Shown one piece after another: positions 12,251 to 54,326 of a DNA stretch of 54,326 nucleotides. The position numbers and the translations under genes were made by a program. Where the stretch lies: assembly GCA_900316345.1 (NCBI GenBank), contig ONCR01000002.1, positions 1 to 54,326 of the forward strand, read 5' to 3'. Within the stretch, counting starts at the first letter, position 1. Every line of letters begins with the position of its first letter. This stretch comes from an uncultured Eubacteriales bacterium (GTDB taxonomy: Bacteria; Bacillota; Clostridia; Oscillospirales; Acutalibacteraceae). The notes under the pieces were generated by a model. It saw nothing but the letters and a program-made list of their open reading frames with translations, had not been told where the DNA came from and ran no database searches.

Positions 12251-12273
12251 AATTGTACCTCCTATTACCCCTG

Positions 12274-15852: not shown

Positions 15853-16977
15853 TTATTGAAGCATTCTCGTCTGATAGGTATAAGACGGGGTAACGTTACC
15901 GGCAAATCTGTTAAAGATTTGTTTATCGCCGGAGGTTATCGCGTCATCTCCGTTAAGGTCGAAATAGCGTTTATACGCTTCGCTTCCCATTGTTGCCTGA
16001 AGAGCTCCGTTAAACTTTTGCTTGTCACCTGAGGTAACAGCTCCGTCAGAGTTCCAGTCGCAAACGATAATCGGAATTACGCCTTCATAGTTAACGCTTG
16101 ATTTACCGCTTATGTTAACCGTACGGTCGATTGTTGTACCCGTTGAATTGAGCGCATGCTCACCGTTTTCAAACGAATGGTTCGTTATAATGAGCTTATT
16201 TGTTCCGCGGGGAACAAGCGCGGTAAAGGTACCGTCCTCCGCCGTTACGGCAACGGGGTCGTAATTAACGTCGGTATAGATGCTGATGCCTCCGATTCCG
16301 TCGGTTCCGCTTTCGCCGTCAAGGCTTGTTGCCATAACAACCTTTGCGGAAACGCTTAAGAATTCGGGCGATGCGTCAGCAATCATAAGATAAGTGTTAT
16401 AAGCGGTTTGGGCCGTTGTATCCGTTACATACGCATCGTTATAGCCGTCCGCATAATCGGCTTCGATAAAGGTTAAATCAGGGTCATTACTGAAGGTGAA
16501 ATAATCCTCAAAGTCGATTGTTTGCGCGCTTGTTTCAACGGTAACGTCCATTGAAGCAATACGCGTTCCGCTTTCTGCATCCAAAGCGGTGTAGTTGTCA
16601 TTCTCGGAAGCGAGAGCAACAACTAATTTACCATCATTTTCATCCTTAATTCCGCCAAGGGAAACGTTGCTTTCTGCATCGTCGGCAATAGTTTCGGTTA
16701 CTTCAAGGGAGGTAATAACCTCCTCGTCGTAATCGGCGGTGAACTGCAGGATTGAGGCATTGTCCATATCCGAAACGATAACGTCAACTCTGTAATCGCC
16801 TGCGGTAAGGGCGTTGCCGTCTACCATTTTGCCTTCGGCATCGGTGAAGGCGCAGTACATATAAGGAGTTTCTGAACCGAGAGTGCCCTGTGCATAGGCA
16901 CTGACGGGAGAAAGCATCGTAAAAATAAATAGCGTAGAAATCAGAACAAAAAAGAATTTCTTTGAAGTAGCTTTCAT
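15853..16977 (-). CDS. Secreted beta-sandwich plus dockerin protein
   Basis: A 374-residue exported protein. Residues 1-29 are a signal peptide. Residues about 35-170 form a beta-rich domain with AGDYRVDVIVSDM and TADYDEEVITSL, resembling cohesin or related beta-sandwich folds. Residues about 210-300 form a carboxypeptidase-regulatory-like module. Residues 306-362 are a dockerin with two calcium loops: D307, N309, D311, T315, D318 and D340, N342, D344, T348, D351. Dockerins bind cohesins on scaffoldins or surface anchors. The last 165 residues are closely related to the C-terminus of the 1936-residue protein encoded 116 bp upstream in the same operon. If the N-terminal domain is a true cohesin this would be a small adaptor; otherwise it is a docked surface protein. 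Confidence 0.8.
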   Translation of the reverse strand: MKATSKKFFFVLISTLFIFTMLSPVSAYAQGTLGSETPYMYCAFTDAEGKMVDGNALTAGDYRVDVIVSDMDNASILQFTADYDEEVITSLEVTETIADDAESNVSLGGIKDENDGKLVVALASENDNYTALDAESGTRIASMDVTVETSAQTIDFEDYFTFSNDPDLTFIEADYADGYNDAYVTDTTAQTAYNTYLMIADASPEFLSVSAKVVMATSLDGESGTDGIGGISIYTDVNYDPVAVTAEDGTFTALVPRGTNKLIITNHSFENGEHALNSTGTTIDRTVNISGKSSVNYEGVIPIIVCDWNSDGAVTSGDKQKFNGALQATMGSEAYKRYFDLNGDDAITSGDKQIFNRFAGNVTPSYTYQTRMLQ

Positions 16978-23600: not shown

Positions 23601-23719
23601 TATATTGATATTGTTCGTTAGTATAGGGTATATTGCGCTCAAAAATATCCAAAGCTTGAACGCCTCCCTGTACGCTTAGCGTTAAAACGCTAAAATCATT
23701 AGAAAAAGGAGAGATGATT

Positions 23720-31159: not shown

Positions 31160-31177
31160 TAAATAATTGATACATTT

Positions 31178-31205
31178 AAAGGCATCGCTTCGGCGATGCC
31201 TTTTT
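31178..31205 (+). terminator. Intrinsic terminator after the 2479-residue gene
   Basis: AAAGGCATCGC, a TTCG loop and GCGATGCCTTT, continuing into T residues. Confidence 0.9.
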
Positions 31206-31228
31206 GTTTTCCTTAAAATATATTTTTC

Positions 31229-31257
31229 TTGCAACACTTTGAGCAATATTCTATACT
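31229..31257 (+). promoter_or_regulatory. Promoter of the sigma factor operon
   Basis: TTGCAA (31229-31234), 17 nt and TATACT (31252-31257), a SigA-like pattern about 35 bp before the sigma gene. Confidence 0.6.
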
Positions 31258-31292
31258 ATACATATGAAAGCTTTCAAAACGGTGGTGAAAAA

Positions 31293-31808
31293 ATGGACGA
31301 AAGGCAGTTAGTGCTTAATGCAAAAAAGGGCGACAGCGACGCGTTTTGCGCGCTTTATTCCCTTTACAAGGATAAGCTTTACCGCTACGCATTTTACCGC
31401 CTCGGCGTTCGCGAGGACGCGGAGGACGCAGTATCGGATTGCGTTTTATCCGCGTTTAAACAGATGAACAAGCTCAAAAAGCCGGAAGCATTTTCTTCGT
31501 GGCTGTTTACAATTCTGCGCTTTTCCTGCAATACTTTTATTGAAAGCCAAAAAAGAACAAGGGAAGCCTCAAACATTGAAGATGTTGCAAATACGCTTAG
31601 CACGGATTTAAGCAACACAATTGAAAAAACAGAGCTTCAACAGGCACTTTCAATTTTAAAGGACGATGAAAAGGAAATTGTTCTTATGTCGGTTGTATTC
31701 GGCTTTAACAGCAAGGAAATTGCAAAAACGGTAAGCCTGACTTCGGGGGCAGTGAGGTCAAAGCTGTCGCGGAGCCTTACAAAAATGAGAGAATTTTTAG
31801 GTGAATAG
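31293..31808 (+). CDS. ECF-type RNA polymerase sigma factor
   Basis: A 171-residue extracytoplasmic-function sigma factor. Region 2 spans about 8-80, with KGDSDAFCALYSLYKDKLYRYA and the EDAEDAVSDCVLSAF helix for core and -10 contacts. Region 4 spans about 115-168, with a helix-turn-helix FGFNSKEIAKTVSLTSGAVRS for -35 binding. The frame is open 42 codons upstream, but the GGTGGTG site puts the start at the ATG at 31293. The next gene begins one base after the stop codon and encodes a membrane protein with a cytoplasmic N-terminus, as expected for an anti-sigma partner. Confidence 0.9.
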   Translation: MDERQLVLNAKKGDSDAFCALYSLYKDKLYRYAFYRLGVREDAEDAVSDCVLSAFKQMNKLKKPEAFSSWLFTILRFSCNTFIESQKRTREASNIEDVANTLSTDLSNTIEKTELQQALSILKDDEKEIVLMSVVFGFNSKEIAKTVSLTSGAVRSKLSRSLTKMREFLGE

Positions 31809-31809
31809 T

Positions 31810-33768
31810 ATGGATAATTTTGATTTCATTAAGAATAAGCTTGAAAGCGAAAACGTTACCGCTCCCGAAAGCCTCAGCGAGGAAGCAATAAAGAGCAAGC
31901 TCAGCGAGGGCAAGGGCGGAAATACGGTTATACCGTTTAAGAAAAAGGGTGGCTTTAAGGCGGCGCTTGCGCTTGTTGCATGCTTTGCGGTAATCGCTGT
32001 TTCGGTTTCTTTTATAACAAAAAACGAAAAGCCTCCGGTTGCTTCGCCTTCTACAGATACACAGAGCATAAACGAAATTGTAAGCTTTGAAAGCTATGAG
32101 GAGCTTGAATCAGCCATTAAAAAGCTTGAAAAGGAAAGTATGCGCCTTTACGGAAACGGCCTGAAAACGGATATGGCAGCAACAGATACAGCAGAGGACG
32201 GAGCGGCAAATTATACGGGAAGCGTTCAGAAAAGCTCCTCTGCAACTGCAAAAGAAAGCTTTGCTTCAACAAACAAGCAGGTTGATTCCGTTGACGAGGC
32301 GGATATTATTAAAACAGACGGGAAATATATCTATTACATCAGCGATGATGAAAACTCCCCGCTGACTATATACTCTGCAGACAACGGGAAAACCGAGCGT
32401 CTTTCCTCAATAAAAGCGGGAAAGGACAGCTTTTTCAGCGAAATGTTCCTTTACGGCGACAAGCTTATTGTTATCGGAACAAGAAGCGAGAGCAAAAAGC
32501 TTGAGGATGTAACCGAAAATGATGACGGCGACGATATTATTTACGAAGATAGTATTTATAACGGAGCGCTGCTTTATAACTCCTACAGCTTTGTTTATAC
32601 CTACGATATCAGCGACAAAAGCGCTCCGAAGCTCGTTGATAAATACGAACAAAGCGGATATTATAACTCCTCACGAATGATAGGCTCATGCGTTTATCTT
32701 ATCTCGGATTACAATCGCTTTTATCTTGGCTGCAAGGACGGCTTTGTTCCCTGCGCCTGCGGAAACGACGGCGAACTTAAACAGCTTGATATAAGCGATA
32801 TATCAGCCGTTAAAGACGCTGAAAACGCTTGCTACGCTCTTATAGGCGCTATTGACGTTGAAGGCGGCGATAAGGCAAAGGCAACAAAGGCTGTGCTCGG
32901 CGTAAACGAGCAGGTTTACTGCAACGACGATAACCTTTACCTTACCGGAACTTATACCCACGGAAAATCGCAATGGACGCGCATAGTTAAGTATTCCCTT
33001 AATAAAACAGAGCTTGAGCTTACGGCCGGCGGCGACGCAAAGGGCAGCGTTAACGACCAGTTTTCAATTGACGAATACGAAGGTAACCTCCGCATAGCTT
33101 TAACCGATTATCGCTGGGGCGACGGCAAGGATAAAAACTACCTTTACGTTATGAACGGTAAGCTTGACATTATCGGCAAAACGGAAAGCTTTGCCAAGGA
33201 GGAACACATTGAGGCTGTTCGTTTTATGGGCGATACCGCATACGTTATAACGTATGAACAAACCGACCCGCTGTTTATTATTGATTTGTCAAATCCGAAA
33301 AAGCCCGAAATAACGGGAGAGGTTAAAATAGACGGTTTTTCCTCCTCGCTTACGCCGGTTGACGAAAACACAATGCTCGGCATAGGCTTTGCAACAAAGG
33401 AGGAGGAATGGGGCATCGTTCAGGACGGACTTAAGCTTGCACTGTTTGATATTAGCGATAAAAAGAATCCGAAGGTGCTTGATGAATATGAAATCCGTAG
33501 CTCTGACAGCGAAGCGCAATACACCCATAAGGCAATCGCAATAAACAGCGATAAAAAATATTGGGCAATCCCCCTGAGCGTTTATGACGACAGTAAATTT
33601 GATACCGGAGCGCTTGTGATAAGAATTAAGGATAAGAAACTCGAGGTTGAGAACTATAAGCTCAGCGACACAACCTATGATTATTCAAGACGCGTAACCT
33701 TTATAGGCAATTATCTCTATGTTCCTGCAAGCTCCGGCAACAGCATTGATTCATTTGAAGTAAAGTAA
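31810..33768 (+). CDS. Membrane-anchored beta-propeller protein, probable anti-sigma partner
   Basis: A 652-residue protein. Residues 1-45 are cytoplasmic and basic, a membrane segment lies at about 48-68 (ALALVACFAVIAVSVSFI), and the large outer part from about 145 resembles the secreted C-terminal beta-propeller family (DUF/Beta_propel). Supporting stretches are QVDSVDEADIIKTDGKYIYYI, LFIIDLSNPKKPEITGEVKIDGF and LALFDISDKKNPKVLDEYEI, which repeat as propeller blades. An in-frame GTG lies upstream at 31801; AGGTG placed 6 nt before the ATG at 31810 decides the start. Translational coupling to the sigma gene suggests that the short cytoplasmic N-terminus holds the sigma factor and the propeller senses an envelope signal. 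The anti-sigma role is inferred from position. Confidence 0.75.
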   Translation: MDNFDFIKNKLESENVTAPESLSEEAIKSKLSEGKGGNTVIPFKKKGGFKAALALVACFAVIAVSVSFITKNEKPPVASPSTDTQSINEIVSFESYEELESAIKKLEKESMRLYGNGLKTDMAATDTAEDGAANYTGSVQKSSSATAKESFASTNKQVDSVDEADIIKTDGKYIYYISDDENSPLTIYSADNGKTERLSSIKAGKDSFFSEMFLYGDKLIVIGTRSESKKLEDVTENDDGDDIIYEDSIYNGALLYNSYSFVYTYDISDKSAPKLVDKYEQSGYYNSSRMIGSCVYLISDYNRFYLGCKDGFVPCACGNDGELKQLDISDISAVKDAENACYALIGAIDVEGGDKAKATKAVLGVNEQVYCNDDNLYLTGTYTHGKSQWTRIVKYSLNKTELELTAGGDAKGSVNDQFSIDEYEGNLRIALTDYRWGDGKDKNYLYVMNGKLDIIGKTESFAKEEHIEAVRFMGDTAYVITYEQTDPLFIIDLSNPKKPEITGEVKIDGFSSSLTPVDENTMLGIGFATKEEEWGIVQDGLKLALFDISDKKNPKVLDEYEIRSSDSEAQYTHKAIAINSDKKYWAIPLSVYDDSKFDTGALVIRIKDKKLEVENYKLSDTTYDYSRRVTFIGNYLYVPASSGNSIDSFEVK

Positions 33769-33783
33769 TCCCCTATCAAAAAA

Positions 33784-33817
33784 ACACGGAAACCAAACGG
33801 CTTTCCGTGTTTTTTTG
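33784..33817 (+). terminator. Intrinsic terminator after the sigma operon
   Basis: ACACGGAAA and TTTCCGTGT form the stem, followed by a run of seven T residues. Confidence 0.9.
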
Positions 33818-33857
33818 TTTTGCAACCAATAGTTGCGTTAATTCAAGCTAAAATGTA

Positions 33858-33886
33858 TTGAAGAAACCTGCTGTTTTTGATAAAAT
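33858..33886 (+). promoter_or_regulatory. Promoter of the XRE regulator
   Basis: TTGAAG (33858-33863), 17 nt and TAAAAT (33881-33886), then GGAGG before the ATG at 33916. Confidence 0.6.
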
Positions 33887-33915
33887 GTAATTGAAAACAG
33901 ACGGAGGTAATAACT

Positions 33916-34590
33916 ATGGATAATGCCATTTATGAAAGACTTCTTGAATACAGAAAGAAAAACGGCCTCTCACAGGAGGAGCTTGCAGAAAAAATCGGCG
34001 TTTCGCGCCAGGCAATTTCAAAATGGGAAAGGGGCGAAAGCAGCCCCGATACCGATAACCTTATTGCCCTTTCACAGCTTTACGGCGTAACGGTTGACGA
34101 GCTTCTTTTCGGCAAAAAGGCAGAGGAAAAAGAAAAAACCCCCTCCTCTGACAGCGTGAATATCGGCATTGGGGGTATTGATGTTCAAAGCGCGGAGGGC
34201 GACAGGGTTCACGTAGGCTTTGACGGAATACGCGTTACCGATGGAGACGGTAATCCTTCAGAGAGCTTAAATAAATATGAAAACGAAAAGAAAAGCCGTC
34301 CTATGCTTAGCGCTGTAATTATAATTATCGGAATAATCGCATTCCTGCTTGTAGGCTTTTTGTTCAAGCTTTGGAAGGTTTGCTGGGTTTTAATTCTTCT
34401 TGCAATTTGCGTTTCATCGCTTATTGAGGCGATAGATAAAAAGAAGCCCTCGCATTTTAACTATCCGCTTCTTATGGTAAGCATTTACTGCGGCATAGGG
34501 CTGACGGCAAAAATCTGGCACCCGACGTGGATTCTATTTGTAACAATACCGATTTTTTACCTAATATGCGACGCAGTTAAGAAAAAATAA
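33916..34590 (+). CDS. XRE-family regulator with C-terminal membrane segments
   Basis: A 224-residue protein. Residues 5-65 are a Cro/C1-type helix-turn-helix (LSQEELAEKIGVSRQAISKWERG, then YGVTVDELLFG). Residues about 66-130 are a polar linker with a short Gly/Val/Asp-rich beta stretch. From about 131 there are three to four hydrophobic segments (AVIIIIGIIAFLLVGFLF; VLILLAICVSSLIEA; YPLLMVSIYCGIGLTA; WILFVTIPIFYLICDA). Such membrane-tethered XRE proteins are common in Firmicutes, often near genes for envelope or peptide stress, but the target here is unknown. It is monocistronic. Confidence 0.85.
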   Translation: MDNAIYERLLEYRKKNGLSQEELAEKIGVSRQAISKWERGESSPDTDNLIALSQLYGVTVDELLFGKKAEEKEKTPSSDSVNIGIGGIDVQSAEGDRVHVGFDGIRVTDGDGNPSESLNKYENEKKSRPMLSAVIIIIGIIAFLLVGFLFKLWKVCWVLILLAICVSSLIEAIDKKKPSHFNYPLLMVSIYCGIGLTAKIWHPTWILFVTIPIFYLICDAVKKK

Positions 34591-34599
34591 TAAACGCAA

Positions 34600-34626
34600 A
34601 AAAGGCATCGCAAAGCGATGCCTTTT
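34600..34626. terminator. Bidirectional terminator between convergent genes
   Basis: AAAAGGCATCGC, a 3-nt loop and GCGATGCCTTTT give a 12-bp stem with A and T ends, serving both the XRE gene and the 1341-residue gene. Its stem nearly repeats that at 31178. Confidence 0.85.
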
Positions 34627-34634
34627 AATAATGC

Positions 34635-37600
34635 TTATTTTACCGTAGCGGTTTTAGCAATTGAAAGCGGAGAATAAATCTTTTTGCCGCTCTTTACCAT
34701 ATAGGACTTAATTTTAACGTAGTACTTTTTGCCTGACTTAAGTCCGGTAATGGTTTTGCTTGTTTTAGAAGCGCCCTTAACTGTAACGGTTTTAGCGCCC
34801 TTCATATTCTTCTTTGTTGAATACTTGATTACATAGCCCTTAACGCCCTTAGTTGCGCTCTTCTTCCATGTAACCTTAATTGCGCCCTTCTTAGCCGTCA
34901 GCTTAACCTTCTTTGCGTTCTTCGGGCCGATTGTATATTTAACGGTCTTTGCCTTGCCCTCGTAGCCGCCGATGAAGGTTACGGTTACTTTATAGGTTCC
35001 GATTTTCTTTGAATTATTGTTCGAATAAGTAACTTTATAGGAAACGCCCTTTGTAAGGGTTTCGCCGTTAAGGGTTACCTTAACGCTCGGCTTCTGGATT
35101 TTGCCGTTATAGCTGAACTTTCTCTTTGTAAGGGTAACCTTTGCCTTGCTTGCGTCAATCGGGCTGAGGTTAAGGGTTGCGTTAATGCCGTCAATAGCTT
35201 CGCCGATTGATTTGCCTGCGTCGGCAGTAGCGTCCTTGTTTTCGCCGTTATCGTAGAAATAATCAAGAATAGCAGCGTAGGTATCAAGCTTACCTGCTTC
35301 AACAGCTTTATCAACAAGGGTTGAAATGTTGCTGCCTACAAGCGGAATTCCGCCGATTTTTTCTTTAAGGCCTTCAGCATTTTCCTTATTTGCAAAGAGG
35401 TTGTTATATAAGTAATATACAAGCTCGGTGAACATTACGTCGCCGTCGATATATCTTACGGCAACATAGTCCTTATCCTGCTGCGCGCTCGCATTAACCT
35501 TAAATGTTGTGTACTTGTTAAGCTCGGTTAAATCCGGCATTGCAAGAGTTACGCCGAGGCCTGAAAGCTTATCATTAATCAGCTTAAGAAGTGCGTTAGG
35601 AAGAACATATTTATTAAGAACTGTTTCAAGCGGAACGTCGTCAATCTTAATATCCGTTACAAGCGGAGCTAACATACCGAGGTTGCTTGTAAGGTTCTTA
35701 TAGATTGTTGAGGGAAGGTCGCTTGTAATAATATCGCCGAGTCTCGGGATAAGAGCAAGTACGTCGGTAATTGTATGAAGGTCGCTGTCAATAAACTTAA
35801 ATACGTTATCAACTATCGGGCGAAGTAAAGCGTCGCCGGCGATAGCCATTGCAGCCTTGCCCTTATCATATGAGCTGCCTTCTGCAGCGGCATAAGCCTT
35901 CTGGAATTCGCTGTAATAATTTGCTTTATACTGAGCGTCAGTCATAAAGCCTGTTACGCCGAGAGCTTCAAGAGCCTTAACGCAGCATTCGTAAACGCCG
36001 AAGGTGAATTCGCCCGTGGTCTTATCAACATAGTTGAAGAACTCAACGCCGAGATTCATACCAAAAATGTTAAATTCGGGTGAAAGAACAGCCGTCATCG
36101 GGCGGAGAGCAGCAAGCGCTGCGTTAACAAAGCCGTCCTTATCGCCATCCTTGAAACCGAAATCGCCGCTCTTGAATTCGATAGCTGCTATTGCGTCGTA
36201 AATATTGGCGTCCTCATAGATTGTTTTGCCTTCGGCATCTTCGCCGCAGTCAATCTGAACGGGAGAACCGTCCTCTTCCGTAGGAACCTTGTCAGCGTCG
36301 ATACAAGCTTCTATCTTTTCCTTTGCGGAAGTATACTTAGCTTCAATAAGCGTATCCCTGACGCTTGAAGTAGGAATAAGCATCTGAGCAAGAAGCCCCG
36401 CCTTAACGGGTGTTCCCTGAACTTCAACGTCCTTCTGGTTATGGGAAAGGCTTGCATAAAGCGAATAAATCTTGCCTACGGTTGCGTTTGTATAATACTT
36501 TTCAAGAGCTGAATTTACAACGTCGTTCTTATCGTCGATAGCAATGCTGTCCGTAAGAAGCGGAAGAACATCGTCAATAGCGAAGTTTTCAACATTATCA
36601 ATGCTCTTTGAAAGACCTAAATTATTGATTGCGTCGCTTGACTTCGGAAGAGTAGCCTTGTCCGCCTTCTTGGCAGCCTCGGAGGAATGCTTATCAGGGT
36701 CAACGTCAGGTGTCTGAATCCGGCAATACTTAGCCCAAACATCCTCATCCTCATATGCGTTCTTCTTAGCGTCATCCGAAAGAGCGCGGTATTTTTCAGC
36801 CGCTTCCTTGCGAACGGCATCGTCAACGTTGTCAAGGTCAACCGAATTAACGTAATCCTTAAATTCGCTGGAGATGATTATAATATATGTGTTATAAAGT
36901 GTTTTATCTGACTTAACAAGAGTTTTAAGGTCGTCGCTGAGAGCATTATAAAGCTCGGTTGCCGTCTCTCTGTTTTCATCTGTTATATTGTTAAGGTCAA
37001 CGCCTTCAACATAATACCTGAACGGAGCGATAAGCATTTGTCTGTACTTATCATAAATCTTCTTGTATTTTGAGCCGGTTTTAATAACATCCTTGAATTC
37101 GTCAACCGTGTTTTCAAGTTTTTCGGTTGCAGTATCAATATTGGTCTGAGTAACGTTATCAATATCAACACCGTTAACATAGTTAACGAAATCGCTCGTC
37201 ATAATTGTTTCGGTATTATTCCAGAGGTCTGTTGTTGCCCTTACGGTATTCTGGAATTCAGCTTTGAGGTCATTGAACTTCTGCCAGGTTTCGGTAACGT
37301 TTTCAGCTGTGATTGTACCGCTTGCGATTACGCCGTTAACGTATTCCTCGTATTCATCAAGAGGAAGGTATTCGGCATATTCGTCAGCAACAAGGCCGAT
37401 AAGGTCAACAATCTTGCTCTTACCGTCGTTAATGCCTACGTAAGCAGCGGCGTTGCTCATTGTTGAAGGATTAGCCTGTAAGTATGCAATTGAATCAGCC
37501 TCATCACCTTCGCCGAACTTAACGTTCTCTCTCATGGTGATGTTTGAAATCTGAATATTGAAAAGAGCGTTAATGTTAGCTGAAATAGTTTTGATTACAA

Positions 37601-38660
37601 CCTTAGCTTCGGGTGAAAGCGCGTCATACGCTTTGTAAGCAGCCTTGATATCGGCAAAATCAACGTCCTCGCCCGCTACAAGCTGAAGACCTGCGTCAAT
37701 GTTAAGCGCCGCAGCGTTTGCAAGGCCTTCATATCTGTCGCCCGCATCCTCTAAAGCGGTGAAATAATCAACATAGAATGCCTTTGAGTTAGCGTTTGCG
37801 TTAGCATAGAAATCCTTAAGAAGACCGTAGTATTCTGCAACCGCTTCATCACTTATCCACTTGCTGCTCTTTATATACTTATTCTTAAGAACGGTACCGT
37901 TAAGAGGCATAGCCGAATAGCGATAATAGAGTTCTGCAAATCTTTTACCGTGCCTTTCAGCGAAGTAATAGTTAAGGCTTGAATCAAACGAATTAGCCTT
38001 AGCATAGTTAGTCTTCTGTGTATTGGCAAAAGCGTCGCTTACCGTACTTGTTGACTGAATAACAAGAATATCGGCAAAGTCAATCTGAGCTGCGGAGTAA
38101 TCCTTATAGTTTGCCCAAAACGCTTCAAACTTTGCTTTAGCGGCTGCGTTTGTTCCGTAATAAAGGTTATTTAAGCTACCGCCTATCTGGTTAATTTTTG
38201 CAGATGCATAATCAGCGTCAACCGCCTGCGCATTGAGAGCGTTGAAATCCGCGATAACGTCAATATAATCCTGAGGAACGGGAAGAATTGCATTATAAGC
38301 AGCCTTCGTTGCAGCGTCCCCGTTTGCAAGCGCGGTTAACTCCGTAGCTCTGTTTGTTGGGTTTCTCGCCTTATTCTTATTAATAAGAATTTGAGTTGTT
38401 GCAACGTGGAGAGCGTAAGCATAAAGATACGGATTCATCTTTGTAACGTCCTGAAGGGCGTTAATCTTTTCAAGCATGGTTGTATCCGTAGCCTGAACAT
38501 CGTTTGCGCTCATGCTGTTTAATGCAGCTTCAGCTGCCGAATCTGCCGCTTCGATAGCTTCCCGGCTGTCAGCCGCGAAAGCAAAAAACGACAGTGAACA
38601 CGATGTTACAAGCATAACAAAAGCAAGTAACATACTGATTAGTTTCTTAGACTTTGTCAT
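34635..38660 (-). CDS. Giant secreted protein with helical repeats and Ig/Fn3 tail
   Basis: A 1341-residue exported protein. AAAGGAG sits 8 nt before the ATG at 38660; a GTG three codons upstream has poorer spacing. A signal peptide ends near AFA at about residue 29. Residues about 30-480 are helical. From about 470 to 660 there are short repeats of the form FxxYVxxVDLxNVTxxxxxxA...YxxL. From about 833 one copy of the large unit seen in the 2479-residue protein appears (GFKDGDKDGFVNAALAALRP, then ALEALGV, then LPNALLKLIND). Residues about 1170-1250 look like a bacterial Ig-type domain (FSYNGKIQKPSVKVTLNGE), followed by an Fn3-like domain rich in Lys to the end. No covalent wall anchor is seen; the basic tail may hold it to the wall. 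Function unknown. Confidence 0.8.
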   Translation of the reverse strand: MTKSKKLISMLLAFVMLVTSCSLSFFAFAADSREAIEAADSAAEAALNSMSANDVQATDTTMLEKINALQDVTKMNPYLYAYALHVATTQILINKNKARNPTNRATELTALANGDAATKAAYNAILPVPQDYIDVIADFNALNAQAVDADYASAKINQIGGSLNNLYYGTNAAAKAKFEAFWANYKDYSAAQIDFADILVIQSTSTVSDAFANTQKTNYAKANSFDSSLNYYFAERHGKRFAELYYRYSAMPLNGTVLKNKYIKSSKWISDEAVAEYYGLLKDFYANANANSKAFYVDYFTALEDAGDRYEGLANAAALNIDAGLQLVAGEDVDFADIKAAYKAYDALSPEAKVVIKTISANINALFNIQISNITMRENVKFGEGDEADSIAYLQANPSTMSNAAAYVGINDGKSKIVDLIGLVADEYAEYLPLDEYEEYVNGVIASGTITAENVTETWQKFNDLKAEFQNTVRATTDLWNNTETIMTSDFVNYVNGVDIDNVTQTNIDTATEKLENTVDEFKDVIKTGSKYKKIYDKYRQMLIAPFRYYVEGVDLNNITDENRETATELYNALSDDLKTLVKSDKTLYNTYIIIISSEFKDYVNSVDLDNVDDAVRKEAAEKYRALSDDAKKNAYEDEDVWAKYCRIQTPDVDPDKHSSEAAKKADKATLPKSSDAINNLGLSKSIDNVENFAIDDVLPLLTDSIAIDDKNDVVNSALEKYYTNATVGKIYSLYASLSHNQKDVEVQGTPVKAGLLAQMLIPTSSVRDTLIEAKYTSAKEKIEACIDADKVPTEEDGSPVQIDCGEDAEGKTIYEDANIYDAIAAIEFKSGDFGFKDGDKDGFVNAALAALRPMTAVLSPEFNIFGMNLGVEFFNYVDKTTGEFTFGVYECCVKALEALGVTGFMTDAQYKANYYSEFQKAYAAAEGSSYDKGKAAMAIAGDALLRPIVDNVFKFIDSDLHTITDVLALIPRLGDIITSDLPSTIYKNLTSNLGMLAPLVTDIKIDDVPLETVLNKYVLPNALLKLINDKLSGLGVTLAMPDLTELNKYTTFKVNASAQQDKDYVAVRYIDGDVMFTELVYYLYNNLFANKENAEGLKEKIGGIPLVGSNISTLVDKAVEAGKLDTYAAILDYFYDNGENKDATADAGKSIGEAIDGINATLNLSPIDASKAKVTLTKRKFSYNGKIQKPSVKVTLNGETLTKGVSYKVTYSNNNSKKIGTYKVTVTFIGGYEGKAKTVKYTIGPKNAKKVKLTAKKGAIKVTWKKSATKGVKGYVIKYSTKKNMKGAKTVTVKGASKTSKTITGLKSGKKYYVKIKSYMVKSGKKIYSPLSIAKTATVK

Positions 38661-38704
38661 AAAAAACACTCCTTTACACTAAATGACTGATTTAGTCTCA
38701 CTTT

Positions 38705-38868: not shown

Positions 38869-40743
38869 TTAATTTTTTAAAGCCCTTATTGCATTTATAA
38901 CCGCTATAACCATAACTCCTACGTCTGCAAAAATCGCAAGCCACATATTCGCAATTCCGAAGGCGCCGAGCACAAGGCAAACAAGCTTTACGCCTATTGC
39001 GAAAATTATGTTTTCCCAAACTATACGCATACTCTTTTTTGAGAGCTTTACGGCTGTTGCAATTTTTAGCGGATTATCGTCCATAAGAACGACGTCAGCC
39101 GCTTCAATAGCCGCGTCGGAACCAAGCGCGCCCATTGCAATTCCCACGTCAGCGCGCGATAAAACGGGGGCGTCGTTAATTCCGTCGCCGGCAAAAGCGA
39201 GCGCTTCTCCCTTCCCTTTTTCGGCAAGAAGCTTTTCAAGATATTTAACCTTATCCTCGGGAAGAAGCGAGCTTTTATAATCGTCAATTTTAAGCTTTTC
39301 AGCCACCGATGCGGCAACCCTTTCGGAGTCGCCCGTAAGCATAACGGTTTTTAAAACGCCTGCATTTTTTAGCTCCTTAACAGCCTGTTCCGAGCTTTCT
39401 TTAACAGTATCAGAAATAAGGATAAAGCCTTTAAACACGCCGTTTTCGGCAACATAAACAACCGTTCCTATTTCATCAGCTTCATCAAATTTAACGCCAA
39501 GAGAATTCATCAGTTTTGCATTGCCGGCGGCAATCTCATTGCCTTCAATCACAGCTGTAACACCGTTGCCGCTGATTTCCTTAAACGAAGCGATAATTCC
39601 ATCGTCTATTTCAAATTTATACGCCGCTTTCAGGCTTTTGCTTATAGGATGGTTTGAATAAGCTTCGGCGTGCGCGGCAAGACGAAGAAGCTCATTTTTA
39701 TCAATGCCTGAAGGTACAATTTTGCTAACCTCAAAAACGCCCTTTGTAAGCGTTCCCGTTTTATCAAAGACAAGGTATTTTATTTTAGAAAGACGCTCAA
39801 TATAACTTGCGCCTTTAACAAGAATACCGTTTCTGCTCGCGCCGCCGATAGCCGCAAAAAAAGTTAGCGGAATTGAAATAACAAGCGCGCACGGACAGCT
39901 TATAACAAGAAATGTAAGCGCCCTGTAAAGCCATTCGTTCCAGCTTGGTTCATTGCCTGAAATAAGAAGAATAATATTGGGAAGCACGGCTAAAAGCAGT
40001 GCGGAAATGCATACGGCCGGCGTATAATATCTTGCAAATTTTGAAATAAATTTTTCACTTTTGGCTTTTTTTGCGGTTGAGTTTTCAACCAAATCAAGAA
40101 TTTTTGATACCGTTGATTCGCCGAAAAGCCTTGTAGTACGTATTTTTAAAAGGCCGTTTTCGTTTATACAGCCGCTAATAACCTCGTCGCCCCGGGCAAC
40201 CTCACGCGGAAGGCTTTCGCCGGTAAGAGCGCTTGTATTTATCGCCGCTTCACCTTCAACAACAACGCCGTCAATAGGAATTTTTTCCCCGGCGGCAACC
40301 TGAATTACGCTACCCGTTTCAACCTCCTCCGGTGAAACGGTTACCGCCTCCCCGTCAACAATAAGCGTTGCAGTATCGGGACGAATATCCATAAGCGAAG
40401 CGATATTTCGCCTGCTTTTGCCTACGGCATAGCTTTGAAAAAGCTCGCCCAACTGGTAAAACAGCATAACCGCTACGGCCTCGGTAAAGCTTGAATTATC
40501 AAAAATCCCGATAGCTATTGCGCCGATTGTTGCAATAACCATAAGAAAGTTTTCATCAAAAACCTGACCTCGGAAAATTCCCCTAAAAGCTTTTTTAACA
40601 ACATCGTAACCTATAATAATATAAGGAATCATAAATGCAGCAAGGCGAAGGTACGTGTTTTCTATTTTAAGCAACGCGAAAAGCACCAGCAAAACAGCTG
40701 ATACTATTATACGTATTAATACCTTTCTTTGCTTTCTGCTCAT
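38869..40743 (-). CDS. Heavy-metal P1B-type ATPase (Zn2+/Cd2+/Pb2+ type)
   Basis: A 624-residue P1B ATPase that should export soft divalent metals. It shows the CPC metal-binding motif in the membrane (LVISCPCALVISIP, near residue 285), TGES in the actuator domain, DKTGTLTKG, the HP locus SNHPIS, and GDGINDAPVL. Eight membrane segments can be placed: two pairs before TGES, one pair around CPC, one pair at the end. It has no N-terminal metal-binding domain of its own; that domain is encoded as a separate 73-residue protein 13 bp upstream. CPC together with a zinc/cadmium-type ending suggests Zn/Cd/Pb rather than Cu, with moderate certainty. Confidence 0.88.
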   Translation of the reverse strand: MSRKQRKVLIRIIVSAVLLVLFALLKIENTYLRLAAFMIPYIIIGYDVVKKAFRGIFRGQVFDENFLMVIATIGAIAIGIFDNSSFTEAVAVMLFYQLGELFQSYAVGKSRRNIASLMDIRPDTATLIVDGEAVTVSPEEVETGSVIQVAAGEKIPIDGVVVEGEAAINTSALTGESLPREVARGDEVISGCINENGLLKIRTTRLFGESTVSKILDLVENSTAKKAKSEKFISKFARYYTPAVCISALLLAVLPNIILLISGNEPSWNEWLYRALTFLVISCPCALVISIPLTFFAAIGGASRNGILVKGASYIERLSKIKYLVFDKTGTLTKGVFEVSKIVPSGIDKNELLRLAAHAEAYSNHPISKSLKAAYKFEIDDGIIASFKEISGNGVTAVIEGNEIAAGNAKLMNSLGVKFDEADEIGTVVYVAENGVFKGFILISDTVKESSEQAVKELKNAGVLKTVMLTGDSERVAASVAEKLKIDDYKSSLLPEDKVKYLEKLLAEKGKGEALAFAGDGINDAPVLSRADVGIAMGALGSDAAIEAADVVLMDDNPLKIATAVKLSKKSMRIVWENIIFAIGVKLVCLVLGAFGIANMWLAIFADVGVMVIAVINAIRALKN

Positions 40744-40756
40744 AATTAATTACCCT

Positions 40757-40978
40757 TTATTTAAGATAAACCTCTGCGTCGTCGTCAACCTTACGGCAAG
40801 CCTTGCGAACGGCCTTCATAACCAAGGCCTCGTCGGCGCCCTCGTCAAATTCAACATTCATTTTAAGCGCCATAAAGTTAACCGTTGCGCTTTTAATGCC
40901 GTCAATTTTGTTTGCCGCAATTTCCATTTTATTAGCGCAATTAGCGCAGTCAACTTCAATTTTATAGGTTTTAGCCAT
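40757..40978 (-). CDS. HMA metal-binding protein (stand-alone domain or chaperone)
   Basis: A 73-residue HMA ferredoxin-fold protein. The metal site reads DCANCANKM at about 10-18, a CxxC on the usual loop between the first strand and helix. GAGG lies 7 nt before the ATG at 40978; the frame continues upstream only through non-ATG codons. It is first in the operon with the P1B ATPase and probably hands it metal or replaces the missing fused N-terminal domain. The last residues (DDDAEVYLK) are acidic. The CxxC lacks the usual preceding GMT. Confidence 0.88.
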   Translation of the reverse strand: MAKTYKIEVDCANCANKMEIAANKIDGIKSATVNFMALKMNVEFDEGADEALVMKAVRKACRKVDDDAEVYLK

Positions 40979-41005
40979 AATCTTACCTCGCTTCAACGAT
41001 TATAC

Positions 41006-41025
41006 ATATGAACGATTGTTCATCT
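41006..41025. promoter_or_regulatory. ArsR/SmtB-type metal operator
   Basis: ATATGAAC, a 4-nt spacer and GTTCATCT form an 8-4-8 inverted repeat with one mismatch, like the TGAACA...TGTTCA sites bound by CadC/CzrA/SmtB repressors. It lies at the transcription start of the HMA-ATPase operon, so repressor binding would block initiation. No ArsR gene is present in the window. Confidence 0.7.
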
Positions 41026-49723: not shown

Positions 49724-51595
49724 ATGAGAAAGAAGCAATTCAAGGCTGAAAGCAAAAAGCTCCTTGATATGATGATTAACTCTATTTACACTCACAAAGA
49801 AATATTTCTTCGCGAGCTGATTTCAAACGCCAGCGACGCTACCGATAAGCTTTATTTTAAATCACTTACCGATACGGCTATAGACGCTTCGGATTTAAAA
49901 ATCCGTATTGAGCTTGATAAGGAAAACCGCCTTATCACCGTTAAGGATAACGGAATAGGCATGACCGCTGAGGAGCTTGAAAGCAACCTCGGAACTATAG
50001 CAAAATCCGACAGTCTTAATTTTAAAAATGAAAACAAGGACGATGAAAACCTTGAAAACCTTGAGGTTATAGGCCAATTCGGCGTAGGCTTTTACTCCTC
50101 CTTTATGGTTGCCGACAGGGTTGAGGTTATCTCAAAGGCTCTCGGAAGCGACGGCGCTAACAAATGGGTAAGCGAGGGCGTTGAGGGCTACACCGTTGAG
50201 CCCTGCGAAAAGGAAGCCGTAGGCACAACCGTTATTCTTCACATTAAGGACGATAACGAAAACGAAAACTACAGCGAATATCTTGACCAATACAGAATTC
50301 GTGAGCTCGTTAAAAAATACAGCGATTACATCCGCTACCCCATCGTTATGGAAATGACCTCTCAGGTTCCCGATAAGGATAACGAGGGCGAATACATAAC
50401 CGAGGTTAACGACGAAGTACTTAACTCGCAGGTTCCGCTTTGGAGAAAGAACAAAAGCGAAATTAAAGCCGAGGAATACAACGAATTTTATAAGCAGAAA
50501 TTCTATGACTTCACCGACCCCGCGCTTGTAATTCACAGCAAAACAGAGGGCCAGGCAACCTTTGACGCACTTATGTTCATCCCCGAAAATGCGCCGATGG
50601 ATTTTTATTCAAAGGAATTTGAAAAGGGGCTTCAGCTCTATTCTAACGGCGTTCTAATTATGGACAAATGCGCCGATTTGCTCCCCGATTATTTCAGCTT
50701 CGTTCGCGGCCTTGTTGACAGCTCCGACCTTACGCTCAACATTTCGCGCGAGGTTCTTCAGCACGACAGACAGCTTAAAATCATTGCAAAGGCTATTGAC
50801 AAAAAGCTGAAATCAGAGCTTGCAAAGCTTCTTAAAAACGACAGAGAGAAATACGAAAAGTTCTTTAAAACCTTCGGCGTTCAGCTTAAATGGGGCGTTT
50901 ACGCAGATTACGGAATGAATAAGGACGGGCTTAAAGATTTAATTATTTTTAAATCCTCAAACGGCGGTTACGTTACGCTTAAGGAATACACCGAGCGTAT
51001 GGCGGACAGCCAGAGCGATATTTACTACGCCTGCGGCGACAGCGAGGAAAAAATCGCCCTTCTTCCCCAGGTTGAAGCGGTAAAAGAAAAGGGCTTTGAG
51101 GTTCTTTATTTCACCGATGACGTTGATGAATTTGCAATTCAGATGCTTATGGAATACGAGGGCAAGCATTTTGCAAACGTTCAAAAGGACGAGGTTGACC
51201 TTTCAACCGACGCTGAAAAGGAAGCCGTTCAGAAAAAGAATGAAAGCTCAAAGGAGCTTCTTGATAAAATGAAGGAAATCCTCGGCGGCGAGGTTAGCGC
51301 GGTTAAGTTTACAAACAAGCTCGGCAAACACGCCGTAAGCCTTTCGGCTGAAGGCTACGTCAGCCTTGAGATGGCTAAGGTTTTATCGCAAATGCCGGGC
51401 GGCGGCGAAGGCGTTAAAGCGCAGCTTGTTCTTGAAATCAACAGCGACCACGCGCTTGCGAAGAAGCTTGAAGAGGCTGATGAAAAAACGCTTGAAAAAT
51501 ACACAAAAATTCTTTACAACCAGGCAAGACTTATCGCAGGGCTTACGGTTGAAAATCCAACGGAATTTGCGGATATGATTTGCGAGCTTATGTAA
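49724..51595 (+). CDS. htpG: Hsp90 chaperone HtpG
   Basis: A 623-residue Hsp90. The N-terminal ATP-binding domain shows FLRELISNASDATDKL (with the catalytic Glu and the ATP-contacting Asn), VKDNGIGMT, LGTIAKSDS and IGQFGVGFYSSFMVA. The middle domain has PLWRKN and LNISREVLQ with the conserved Arg. A C-terminal dimerisation domain completes a normal-length protein. It assists folding of client proteins under stress in the cytoplasm. Control is by the CIRCE element. Placing htpG under HrcA is known in some bacteria but is not the Bacillus subtilis arrangement. The ribosome site (GAGATGAT) is weak. Confidence 0.97.
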   Translation: MRKKQFKAESKKLLDMMINSIYTHKEIFLRELISNASDATDKLYFKSLTDTAIDASDLKIRIELDKENRLITVKDNGIGMTAEELESNLGTIAKSDSLNFKNENKDDENLENLEVIGQFGVGFYSSFMVADRVEVISKALGSDGANKWVSEGVEGYTVEPCEKEAVGTTVILHIKDDNENENYSEYLDQYRIRELVKKYSDYIRYPIVMEMTSQVPDKDNEGEYITEVNDEVLNSQVPLWRKNKSEIKAEEYNEFYKQKFYDFTDPALVIHSKTEGQATFDALMFIPENAPMDFYSKEFEKGLQLYSNGVLIMDKCADLLPDYFSFVRGLVDSSDLTLNISREVLQHDRQLKIIAKAIDKKLKSELAKLLKNDREKYEKFFKTFGVQLKWGVYADYGMNKDGLKDLIIFKSSNGGYVTLKEYTERMADSQSDIYYACGDSEEKIALLPQVEAVKEKGFEVLYFTDDVDEFAIQMLMEYEGKHFANVQKDEVDLSTDAEKEAVQKKNESSKELLDKMKEILGGEVSAVKFTNKLGKHAVSLSAEGYVSLEMAKVLSQMPGGGEGVKAQLVLEINSDHALAKKLEEADEKTLEKYTKILYNQARLIAGLTVENPTEFADMICELM

Positions 51596-51961: not shown

Positions 51962-52038
51962 TGGCGTCCCCGGCGAGATTCGAACTCACGGCCTTTCGCT
52001 TAGGAGGCGAACGCTCTATCCTGCTGAGCTACGGAGAC
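51962..52038 (-). tRNA. tRNA-Arg, anticodon CCU
   Basis: A 77-nt cloverleaf can be folded: acceptor GTCTCCG/CGGGGAC, D arm GCTC/GAGC, anticodon arm TTCGC-CTCCTAA-GCGAA with anticodon CCT (DNA), T arm GTGAG-TTCGAAT-CTCGC, discriminator G and an encoded CCA. It decodes AGG. It has its own promoter and terminator. Confidence 0.97.
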
Positions 52039-52107: not shown

Positions 52108-52374
52108 TTATTCCTCAAAAACGCCCGCCTCTCTCATAGAGGCAATTAAGCCCTCAACGTCTTTTTTCGCCCTTTCCTCGCCTATGCCGTATTTTTTACA
52201 GAGCTGTGAAGCTATTTTATTTTCATCATAGCCCTTTTCAATATAGTCCCAGATTTCGGACGAGGTATCGTTAAGCTCAATAAACATATTTCTTTTTTTG
52301 GCGAGCTCGCCCGTTGTAACAACAAGAAATTTATCGCCGATTTTGCGCTTCATAAAGCCTTTTTTAATTTTCAT
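52108..52374 (-). CDS. PqqD-like / RRE-domain protein
   Basis: An 88-residue PqqD-family protein, a winged-helix fold that as an RRE binds leader peptides of ribosomally made natural products and delivers them to modifying enzymes. Family features are a beta-rich first half (DKFLVVTTGELAKKRNMFIEL) and the NDTSSEIWDYIEKGYDENKIASQLCKKYG helix-turn-helix, followed by a final helix (DVEGLIASMREAGVF). The frame is open to a GTG at 52395, but GGTGG stands 5 nt before the ATG at 52374, which overlaps the kinase gene by 11 bp. It is the last gene of the trio before the tRNA. No precursor peptide or cyclase adjoins it. Confidence 0.85.
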   Translation of the reverse strand: MKIKKGFMKRKIGDKFLVVTTGELAKKRNMFIELNDTSSEIWDYIEKGYDENKIASQLCKKYGIGEERAKKDVEGLIASMREAGVFEE

Positions 52375-53092
52375 TTTTACCACCGTAGCTTTCACCCGTT
52401 AACGCTTCAAACGAGGCCTTAACGGCATTTTCACTTATATCGCATTCAAGAATATACGCAGGGATGTTTTTAAAAATCGCATCAAGTAAATCAAGGGTTT
52501 TAACAACCGTTTCGGCCTCATAAGGCATAAACACCTGGTTCATGATTTCGCTTAATATTTCGCCCGGCTTAACCCTTCTTATACCGTTAACCTCTCCCCT
52601 TTTAATAAGGCAGAGCCCCGCAAGTGGAACGCTTTTCCCGTTTTGAAAGCCCTCCTTGCCGGCATAGGGGGTTGCAAACGCCTCAACCGTTTTACCGTCA
52701 ACGAAAAGAATAGGCTTATCGCCGTTGACTATATCAACGCCCTCAACGTACTTTTTCCAAAGGCTGATATGGGTTGTTTTGCCCGTACCGCTCGGGGCAG
52801 TAAAAAGATAGCCCTTGCCGTTATAGGAAATAACCGCGCCGTGAAAAACCATACGGTTAAAAAGCGGAAGCTGCTTTGCTATTTCGCGGTAAACGCAGAT
52901 GCTTTCGGCATAATCGGGCCTCGGGTTATAGGGAGAGGAGGCAACCTCCTCTTCAACCTCTGCCTCGCTTACGCTTATGCTGAAATCCGCCTTGTTTTCG
53001 GCAAGATAATTGCGGCAAAAGCGCTTCGTATAATCGTAATTACAGTTGATTTCAATATTCAGCTTCGCAAATTCAACATTAAATTTCTGCAT
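52364..53092 (-). CDS. HPr-kinase-like P-loop protein
   Basis: A 242-residue protein resembling the kinase domain of HprK. The Walker A motif is APSGTGKTTHISLWKK at about 101-116, preceded by HGAVISYNGKGYLF as in that family; IVNGDKPIL follows as the Walker B-like acidic segment. It lacks the N-terminal domain and is shorter than true HprK, so it is not the phosphotransferase-system regulator. Relatives in lasso-peptide clusters of the paeninodin type phosphorylate a C-terminal Ser of the peptide. It stands between the nucleotidyltransferase and PqqD-like genes with 14-bp spacing and 11-bp overlap. The substrate is unknown. Confidence 0.85.
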   Translation of the reverse strand: MQKFNVEFAKLNIEINCNYDYTKRFCRNYLAENKADFSISVSEAEVEEEVASSPYNPRPDYAESICVYREIAKQLPLFNRMVFHGAVISYNGKGYLFTAPSGTGKTTHISLWKKYVEGVDIVNGDKPILFVDGKTVEAFATPYAGKEGFQNGKSVPLAGLCLIKRGEVNGIRRVKPGEILSEIMNQVFMPYEAETVVKTLDLLDAIFKNIPAYILECDISENAVKASFEALTGESYGGKNEN

Positions 53093-53106
53093 AAATTCCT
53101 CTGATT

Positions 53107-54231
53107 CTACTTTGATTTCAGCATTGTTTTAATAACTCCCAGCGCGTGAGAGAAGCTGAATCTTTTTAAGGTTTTATATACTCTGTACAACCTGCAGCGA
53201 AGGGTTGAATAGCCCCTTTCCCTGCATTCGGGATAGTTTAGATATATGAATTCCTTCGGCGGAAAAACAAAGCCGTAAACCTGCTTAAGCCTTGCAAATT
53301 TAACTCCCTCGCGCTCGTCCTTGCGAACGTTGTTCCTGATAAATATTTCGCTTACCCCGTGGTTGCCGCTGTTGATAATATCCGCCTCGGTTTCGCTTAA
53401 ATCAATCGGAGACGGCACGTTTTCAAACCACTTTGCTTCAAGCGCAAAAAGCTTATCATAAGCGCTTCTCAGCTCATTTTTATCAATAATCTCATCAACA
53501 AGCCTTCGGTTAATTCTGCCGTCATATGCTTTTTTCAGGTAAAACAAATCAAGAATTCGCCTTATTCCGCAGCCGGCGGTTTCAAAATGAACAATCGTAT
53601 GAATAACCGTAAAAAGGAAGTAATAATCGTCGGTTAAAACGTATCTCATAGGGCCTGCTTCAACCGCGTGGGAAAACGGGGTGTTAATAGCTTCATAGTA
53701 GCGTTCCTTACGGTTAAACATATATTCGGCAAAGAATTCCGTGTGAAATTCAACAAGAAAGCCGTCCTCAAGCACGGCGTCAAATTCGCCCTCCTGTTTT
53801 TGAGAGGTACTGTAGCCGAGGCTTTGCATTATTCCTTTTGCAGCTTCAAGGTTTTCAAAATCAATTATCAAGTCAATATCGCTCATCATACGAAGCTCGC
53901 TTGACGGATAAAGGGTTTTGGTTACGGTTCCCTGCGCCTCAAGGGTTCTTATTCTGTTTTTATGAAGTGCTTCGGTTATTTCCTCATAAGCAAGCCTTTG
54001 GCGCATATCGCGCTGAACGGCAAGATAATAATATATCTTCCATTCCCCGTAAAGCTCCTTCTCAGGCTTAGCCTTAAGACGTTCAACGCTTAAAAAAGCA
54101 ATATTTGCAACCTCGTGCGCCTTGCCGAGGGTAAACACATTTAAAAACGAAACGCCGTCGGGCTTCTCCTTCGGCTGAAGGTCATTAACCGCGCAGCTTA
54201 CAAGGTGAAGCAGGTATTCATAATCAAGCAT
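53107..54231 (-). CDS. Nucleotidyltransferase-family protein (NTP_transf_5 type)
   Basis: A 374-residue protein of the uncharacterised nucleotidyltransferase family found with lasso-peptide and related clusters. The metal site is MSDIDLII near residue 115-122, preceded by a TLYPSSELRM segment; a later acidic residue in FLVEFHTEF near 155 can complete the triad. The rest is helical with basic C-terminus (RCRLYRVYKTLKRF). It begins 4 bp after the mrnC stop codon and is likely transcribed from upstream. In paeninodin-type clusters such proteins accompany the kinase; what they transfer is not established to my knowledge. Confidence 0.82.
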   Translation of the reverse strand: MLDYEYLLHLVSCAVNDLQPKEKPDGVSFLNVFTLGKAHEVANIAFLSVERLKAKPEKELYGEWKIYYYLAVQRDMRQRLAYEEITEALHKNRIRTLEAQGTVTKTLYPSSELRMMSDIDLIIDFENLEAAKGIMQSLGYSTSQKQEGEFDAVLEDGFLVEFHTEFFAEYMFNRKERYYEAINTPFSHAVEAGPMRYVLTDDYYFLFTVIHTIVHFETAGCGIRRILDLFYLKKAYDGRINRRLVDEIIDKNELRSAYDKLFALEAKWFENVPSPIDLSETEADIINSGNHGVSEIFIRNNVRKDEREGVKFARLKQVYGFVFPPKEFIYLNYPECRERGYSTLRCRLYRVYKTLKRFSFSHALGVIKTMLKSK

Positions 54232-54235
54232 AGCA

Positions 54236-54326
54236 TCAGCCTTCTGTTATTATTTCAAATAGTTCTCTTATCCTCTCGGTTTGTTCGCTTAAATACAGAT
54301 AGCCGAAAAGCGCCTCAACGCCCGTT
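54236..54326 (-). CDS. mrnC: Mini-ribonuclease III, C-terminal end only
   Basis: The last 30 codons are visible, the rest lying beyond the window. The ending GVEALFGYLYLSEQTERIRE is characteristic of Mini-III, a dimeric RNase III-like enzyme without an RNA-binding domain that matures 23S rRNA in Firmicutes. It is commonly between cysS and rlmB, so the trio downstream looks like an insertion into, or addition to, a housekeeping operon. Confidence 0.75.
   Translation of the reverse strand, partial: TGVEALFGYLYLSEQTERIRELFEIITEG

Follow-up and report, generated by a model that had tools for sequence, protein, structure and literature searches.

What do three tightly packed genes, encoding a nucleotidyltransferase, a kinase of the HPr kinase type and a small PqqD-like protein, do in a stretch of clostridial DNA with no lasso cyclase in view? 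The set lies at 52108-54231 of the window analyzed here, bases 1-54326 of a 69477-base contig in the draft genome (2.1 Mb, 129 contigs) of an uncultured Eubacteriales bacterium. An earlier note on this DNA had proposed a stand-alone peptide-phosphorylation system related to paeninodin-type lasso peptide clusters, possibly acting on a distant small peptide encoded at 12143. Our analysis indicates that the trio probably supplies the kinase, the recognition element (RRE) and the nucleotidyltransferase of a ribosomally synthesized and post-translationally modified peptide (RiPP) pathway that resembles the one making linear polyphosphorylated peptides (LPPs), with its genes scattered over the genome.

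The identities and positions of the three genes, all on the minus strand, were confirmed by family models and by Foldseek. The first encodes an NTP_transf_5 nucleotidyltransferase (53107-54231; PF14907, expect value (E) 2e-31) with a DID motif recognized by eye. It is followed by the HprK-like kinase (52364-53092), with a P-loop (APSGTGKTTH), His84 and an NGDKP stretch, and by the PqqD-type RRE (52108-52374; PF05402, E 6e-13), 88 residues long from the ATG at 52374, a likelier start than the in-frame GTG at 52395 (52108-52395), which would add seven residues. As the earlier note had described, the trio stands behind mrnC and ends before a tRNA-Arg gene (51962-52038); obgE and mrnC precede it almost without gaps, and the 3′ end of mrnC (54235-54326, minus strand, with its frame at 54235-54325) belongs to the same run. 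The full-length mrnC of the related locus L034 matches PF00636.

Pfam scans of 26 of the 29 window open reading frames (ORFs) of at least 100 residues, those at 11621-11965, 40655-41011 and 49724-51595 being outside the scan, found no cyclase or B2-type peptidase, in agreement with the note that neither a cyclase nor a peptidase is in view; in all likelihood the three genes serve peptide modification, with no lasso cyclase in sight. The sequence past 54326, to which the note had pointed as a place for further pathway genes, contained no RiPP-cluster gene in the seven scanned of 16 ORFs lying beyond the trio up to 69477 (RNase III, Obg, DUF1846, Ig-like, histidine kinase, RnfC and one without a match). 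No match to the trio was found in a phage collection.

Family-model scans gave no match above cut-off for the kinase, and a sequence search of the PDB returned nothing useful. Its AlphaFold2 model, built from 29 aligned sequences (predicted local distance difference test (pLDDT) score 94.9), has HPr kinase/phosphorylase 1kkl as its best Foldseek match (E 1e-7), with phosphoenolpyruvate carboxykinases also matching; the kinase alignment shows no variation at His84, in the P-loop or in the NxDKP stretch. The AlphaFold model of the PqqD protein (pLDDT 92.9) resembles RRE-leader complexes of lasso pathways (5v1u and 6jx3), with a template modeling (TM) score of 0.80. This protein carries Asn35 and Asp72, 37 positions apart; both residues are present in all three RREs of the genome, and Asp72 is invariant in 24 of 24 aligned sequences. 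We also considered an HPr-rel-A/SynChlorMet identity (NCBIfam TIGR04352, TIGR04353, TIGR04249), as the models of those cassettes include an HprK-related kinase and PqqD-family proteins, likewise the types found in the window. The window proteins touch these models only weakly, at 11–16 bits against cut-offs of 35–200 (TIGR04352, 11.2 bits, cut-off 200; TIGR04353, 12.6 bits, cut-off 35).

The nearest known system is not the paeninodin lasso pathway, as the earlier note had supposed, but the LPP family (Popov et al., Nat Commun, May 2026, PMC13381572). According to the sections of that paper drawn on here, and throughout this text, the LPP parts are a SpI-type peptidase (LppS), an RRE (LppB), an HprK-like kinase (LppK), a nucleoside triphosphate (NTP) transferase (LppN) and an MsbA-like protein (LppD), and the precursors share the motif YxxPxVLxHQxIxFETxxS. 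LppK adds one to four phosphates to Ser3 of the core; LppS cleaves after Thr-1, aided by LppB, which holds YxxP through N33 and D70; LppN was inactive in the test host. The LPP collection was drawn from Bacillota and its mapping covers Bacilli genomes; the genes form clusters with one to three precursors, and their role and final product are given as unknown. Like LppB, the window RRE is a discrete protein with Asn and Asp 37 residues apart (N33/D70 in LppB, Asn35/Asp72 here), an equivalence drawn from spacing and context with LppB outside the alignment. The kinase is likewise HprK-like, judged by its HprK fold and residues with the LppK sequence outside the comparison. An NTP transferase, a SpI-type leader peptidase and an MsbA-like exporter are all encoded in this genome, and in both systems the core genes come without a cyclase.

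A candidate substrate was found through small ORFs of 37–50 residues that share an N-terminus, are preceded by a good ribosome-binding site and lie near the kinase gene in several loci of relatives (just upstream of it in L037, L055 and L065, nearby in L057 and L039). The same N-terminus is found in the 35-residue predicted precursor peptide MKEIYTKPEVKVDEYNAVDVLTASPNIDSIIDDDD, encoded at 12143-12250 on the minus strand behind a Shine-Dalgarno sequence (AGGAGG, 12258-12263, minus strand) seven bases ahead of its ATG. A leader profile built from seven leaders, the window peptide's included, matches it at E 2e-14, a score that is partly a matter of construction because the peptide is itself a row of the profile. 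The profile has nine matches in this genome, on the window's own contig (C51), C63, C66 (two), C109 (three in tandem), C48 and C76. The 12143 peptide singled out by the earlier note carries YxxP, a motif to which RREs of this type bind, and is one candidate among nine. Across the genus, matches at E <= 0.1 occur in 62 of 75 genomes, with a maximum of 18 per genome, and at the level of the order a broader leader profile found them in 60 of the 295 sampled genomes, representing 40 of the 148 sampled genera.

The family leader reads YxxPx10D[VI]xT-x-S, and the core behind it is variable, acidic and free of Cys. Among the 54 peptides registered out of 55 distinct ones (one contig-edge peptide was left out, and the precursor of locus L060 was also excluded), with Tyr as position 1, the conserved residues stand at fixed spacing (Tyr in 53, Pro4 in 54, Asp15 in 54, Thr18 in 53 and Ser20 in 52), a pattern for part of which the profile itself selects. 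As in LPPs, a YxxP leader is followed by a conserved Ser about 19 residues on and by a variable core. In the window peptide, the conserved block Tyr5...Pro8...Asp19...Thr22-Ala23-Ser24 (12179-12238, minus strand) is the predicted RRE site, for which we predict, by analogy with LPPs, RRE binding through Tyr5/Pro8, cleavage after Thr22 and Ser24 as the phosphoacceptor. At the conserved positions, Ser is encoded by all six codons, and Pro and Thr by all four of theirs, which points to selection on the protein. A chance origin of these ORFs was rejected because of this codon variation and because the leader profile (E <= 0.1) was empty in the nine genus genomes that lack the system.

The trio is not self-contained, contrary to the idea of a stand-alone system: the genome encodes, on other contigs, two additional RREs, three additional nucleotidyltransferases and a SpI-type peptidase accompanied by an exporter, and the pathway parts are spread over at least nine contigs of the draft. 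PqqD matches number three in this genome and exceed the cut-off in 67 of 75 genus genomes; PF14907 matches number four, and occur in 74 of 75. The single SpI-type peptidase gene (G000:C96:2982-3416), unlinked to the trio, matches at E 9e-37 a profile made from six loci, most with a kinase and a PqqD or nucleotidyltransferase gene alongside; one row of this profile matches TIGR02228, archaeal signal peptidase I, below cut-off. Peptidase matches at E <= 1e-8 occur in 62 of 75 genus genomes. Directly behind the C96 peptidase gene lies an ATP-binding cassette (ABC) gene (L156 3431-5125), MsbA-like by general ABC models only, and all nine other such loci that were read show the same succession; L166 and L167 hold another kind of set, in which a kinase gene is accompanied by a PqqD or nucleotidyltransferase gene.

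A second PqqD-nucleotidyltransferase pair lies on contig C127, between lepA and the C-terminal part of a flavin adenine dinucleotide (FAD) protein whose N-terminal part resembles window 1-1065. Since the corresponding genes are contiguous in L143 and L149, the pair lies probably just beyond the left edge of the window, with C127 adjoining it and L132 9725-10084 and window 1-1065 probably forming one split gene.

Relatives of the kinase were found in 67 of the 118 relatives searched, where a contig scan with the single window protein had returned one only (L003, apparently the same contig as G040:C43). Subfamily A, to which the window kinase belongs, comprises 19 further genomes at 55–75% identity, remoter relatives being at about 28–47%. 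Around it, the usual order, with exceptions, is nucleotidyltransferase, often an ECF-S-like membrane protein, kinase and PqqD. In the neighborhood comparison, of the kind suggested in the earlier note, precursors lie near the subfamily A kinase in L037, L038 and L039, and L060, within the genus, clusters a precursor with the same leader type, an ABC gene, a SpI-type peptidase, a kinase and a nucleotidyltransferase, with no RRE seen in the stretch. L060 links the clustered and the scattered arrangements. In L219, a precursor, a kinase-like gene (by eye) and an RRE stand in a row. The ECF-S-like protein, present near the nucleotidyltransferase and kinase genes in many genus members, is absent from the window; examples are L044 10230-11390 (PF12822, E 2e-9), L035 10127-11200 and L037 5282-6406, and those of L044, L035 and L052 have N-terminal SKYxR repeats.

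The distribution of these parts was compared in the 72 genomes common to the kinase set (118) and the precursor set (75). Nine genus genomes (G004, G015, G019, G022, G034, G042, G043, G046 and G050) have no PqqD match (four) or a weak one (five, E 1.7e-4 to 0.009); with 67 of 75 genomes above the Pfam cut-off, at least one of these five must exceed it. None of the nine has a precursor, kinase or SpI-type peptidase match, and each has a single PF14907 match. Precursors were found in 59 of the 63 genomes with PqqD and in none of these nine (Fisher 8e-9); at 90% completeness or more, the counts were 39 of 40 and 0 of 7. They were also found in 56 of 59 genomes with the peptidase versus 3 of 13 without it (p 1e-7). 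The median number of precursors rises from 0 in genomes without a kinase (n=17) to 2 with other kinases (n=35) and 6.5 with subfamily A (n=20).

Most precursor genes stand at the end of operon-like runs of secreted-protein genes. The window precursor closes a minus-strand run of three, which starts with a 1936-aa protein (17094-22904) and continues with a 374-aa protein (15853-16977), whose dockerin match is weak and below cut-off, and a 1153-aa partner (12322-15783) with a predicted signal peptide, an InlB-type repeat and a C-terminal domain that we call A6, 71 bp upstream of the precursor. Runs with a similar order and similar protein lengths end in a precursor in L127, L128, L129 and L131. 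Overall, 24 of 32 precursors lie at most 250 bp behind a same-strand gene whose product has 300 aa or more and a predicted signal peptide (three of 35 peptides, at contig edges, were dropped; tandem copies behind one gene were counted separately; the signal-peptide prediction is a home-made heuristic), versus 39 of 789 other genes in the same loci (p 1e-22). Of the eight misses, three have partners truncated at contig ends (L057, L113, L116) and two are tandem copies slightly farther than 250 bp away; the others are L060, L115, where a 128-aa ORF precedes, and L118, where the neighbor is on the opposite strand. Among 28 order-level loci (L198-L225), whose upstream sequence was cut at about 1.5 kb, several have no large gene before the peptide.

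The scanned partners carry InlB-type repeats, BspA-type leucine-rich repeats, subtilase, Hint-like, rhamnosidase or ubiquitin domains, or none known. By their C-terminal 180 residues, 31 of 50 proteins upstream of precursors form three classes, some loci overlapping; a precursor follows 16 of 17, 10 of 10 and 9 of 9 class members, counts that are biased, as the loci were partly picked for precursors. In a less biased search of 23 genomes, made with the C-terminal domains alone, the A6 domain occurs in 13 of 14 with the system and the A7 domain in 7 of 14, each in none of nine without it, figures to which the phylogenetic caveat on the co-occurrence counts, given below, also applies. Among the strongest matches, a hand tally of coordinates places a precursor directly behind 17 of 20 for A6 and 25 of 30 for A7; once the profiles' own rows (six A6, nine A7) are removed, the figures are 11 of 14 and 16 of 21. 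For L262, an A7 miss, a degenerate precursor copy was recognized by eye, and three weaker A6 matches that were viewed gave one weak precursor match and two none. A likeness by eye between the C-terminus of the 1153-aa partner and the peptide core (IDTIIDGDE / IDSIIDDDD) was dropped because other partner-precursor pairs lack it.

Further features of the partners and their surroundings were recorded. On C109, a secreted 1144-aa protein (L114 4771-8205) with a ubiquitin domain (PF00240, E 8e-21) precedes the three tandem precursors. Partners of about 1450–1520 aa have a Hint-like module near the C-terminus (L113 2199-6524, by PF01079 at E 9e-5, below cut-off; L045 10369-14928, by eye). Among lipoproteins and small secreted proteins encoded beside precursor, kinase or RRE genes (L130, L113, L039, L046, L133 and L049-L052), a short motif of the TTPVIPIP or ELPKVPVN type ends small lipoproteins, and in four loci the mature part of a neighboring secreted protein begins with a version matched to the locus (TTPIIPIP, ELPKIPVE, TMPRITIP). 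A pattern for the motif occurs in 12 of 888 proteins shorter than 350 aa in the loci compiled here, all 12 secreted or lipoprotein-like by eye; as these loci had been chosen around the system, the pattern may not be specific to it. One precursor core (L114) ends in TPYIPIP. In the window, a LytR-CpsA-Psr gene (10179-11513, PF03816) faces the precursor operon, as it does by eye in L120, L127 and L128, and is adjoined by genes for fructose-bisphosphate aldolase and a PfkB kinase. At 23714-38669, genes for a sigma factor and a Beta_propel protein lie between those of two further very large proteins (2481 and 1344 aa) with signal-like N-termini, neither of which is followed by a match to the leader profile.

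Several observations count against placing the trio in an LPP-like pathway. The FET|xxS of the LPP motif is absent, with D[VI]xT-x-S in its place, and the conserved Ser follows Tyr by 19 residues rather than 18. The window peptide lies 40 kb from the trio, and, with several RRE/nucleotidyltransferase sets in one genome, peptides are not assignable to sets. Eight of the 17 genomes without a detected kinase hold one to four precursors, four of them at least 92% complete (G003, G056, G059, G065), so either this kinase can be dispensed with in some cases or a divergent one takes its place. On a RecA tree that places seven of the nine no-system genomes, at least two changes are needed, and G021, which has the system, sits among six of them; with the no-system genomes clustered in this way, the co-occurrence rests on few independent events. 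Gene organization differs as well, LPP genes forming a single cluster with one to three precursors, whereas here the parts occupy at least nine contigs with nine precursors, up to 18 per genome, and most precursors stand behind secreted-protein genes. As neither the exact leader motif nor the gene cluster is found here, we call the system an LPP-like dispersed variant and not a proven member.

Among the other explanations, it is unlikely, though the most credible of the three, that the trio acts on another target (for example a secreted protein or lipoprotein from its own loci, or a sugar), the YxxP peptides being served only by the RRE/nucleotidyltransferase sets of C127 and C23. The several such sets per genome, the precursor genomes without a detected kinase and the small secreted proteins with matched motifs of their own, encoded beside kinase/RRE genes, would fit such a division of labor, but precursors are most numerous where the subfamily A kinase is present and lie near it in three of its loci. 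That the trio is a remnant or accessory part of a paeninodin-type lasso pathway is improbable. In the portions of PMC8498205 and PMC7533575 consulted, an RRE, a kinase and a nucleotidyltransferase, as found here, are typical lasso accessory genes and occur in the paeninodin and pseudomycoidin pathways, and the YxxP motif is common to many lasso leaders. The kinase of those pathways phosphorylates a C-terminal Ser, whereas Ser is the last residue in none of the 55 distinct precursors, one of them truncated at its 3′ end. A lasso origin was rejected mainly because the B2 peptidase of these pathways (PF13471) has no match in this genome; 75 genus genomes gave four matches, one above cut-off (G028). 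Column counts in the 54 registered precursors reveal no acidic residue at a fixed spacing that could form a ring, and no Asn-synthetase-like lasso cyclase was found among the 26 scanned window ORFs, the whole genome not having been searched for a cyclase.

Least probable of all, we consider it very doubtful that the short peptides are small regulatory or chaperone-like partners of the secreted proteins that share an N-terminus by chance. Their usual place behind secreted-protein genes and outside enzyme clusters would agree with such a role; a fixed 20-residue N-terminal block with a YxxP motif and a variable tail, the joint absence of peptides, RRE and peptidase, and the L060 precursor inside a clustered LPP-type set all speak against it.

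From the genes, predicted folds, conserved residues, co-occurrence and neighborhoods observed, we infer the chemical steps, the export and the surface role of the LPP-like pathway as follows. Small precursors with a YxxP leader would be made mostly from the 3′ end of secreted-protein gene runs. The PqqD-type RRE would bind Tyr5/Pro8 through Asp72/Asn35 and present the peptide to the HprK-like kinase, which would place one phosphate, or perhaps several, on the conserved Ser, residue 24 of the window peptide. The nucleotidyltransferase may attach a sugar or a nucleotide to the phosphate; the sugar is proposed on account of pseudomycoidin, whose phosphate reportedly receives hexoses from PsmN (as recounted in PMC8498205). 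The SpI-type peptidase of C96 would take off the leader, probably after Thr22, and the adjacent MsbA-like ABC protein would export the linear acidic core, which might then work on the cell surface together with the secreted protein of the neighboring gene.

Scattered precursors served by shared enzymes have a parallel in the prochlorosins, where one enzyme set acts, by lanthipeptide chemistry, on many precursors spread over the genome; prochlorosins are not known to be linked to secreted proteins. What is new with respect to the LPP pathway, as far as it is described in the sections consulted, is the dispersal of the parts and the pairing of precursors with large secreted proteins. No account of scattered LPP-type precursors or of a secreted-protein pairing was found in the titles and abstracts of the open-access literature searched, the LPP supplements, which possibly include Clostridia, lying outside that search.

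In one clostridial genus, most of the sampled genomes (62 of 75) hold a related pathway that has many precursors per genome. Tentatively, and with somewhat less than even confidence, we suggest that it could be a genome-wide finishing system for surface proteins, the phosphorylated, perhaps glycosylated, core being an exported companion and the precursor type being matched to the C-terminal domain of the partner. Cluster-anchored searches would probably miss scattered precursors of this kind. The pairing with secreted proteins is a concrete lead to function, as it names candidate substrates, a predicted phosphoacceptor and partner proteins.

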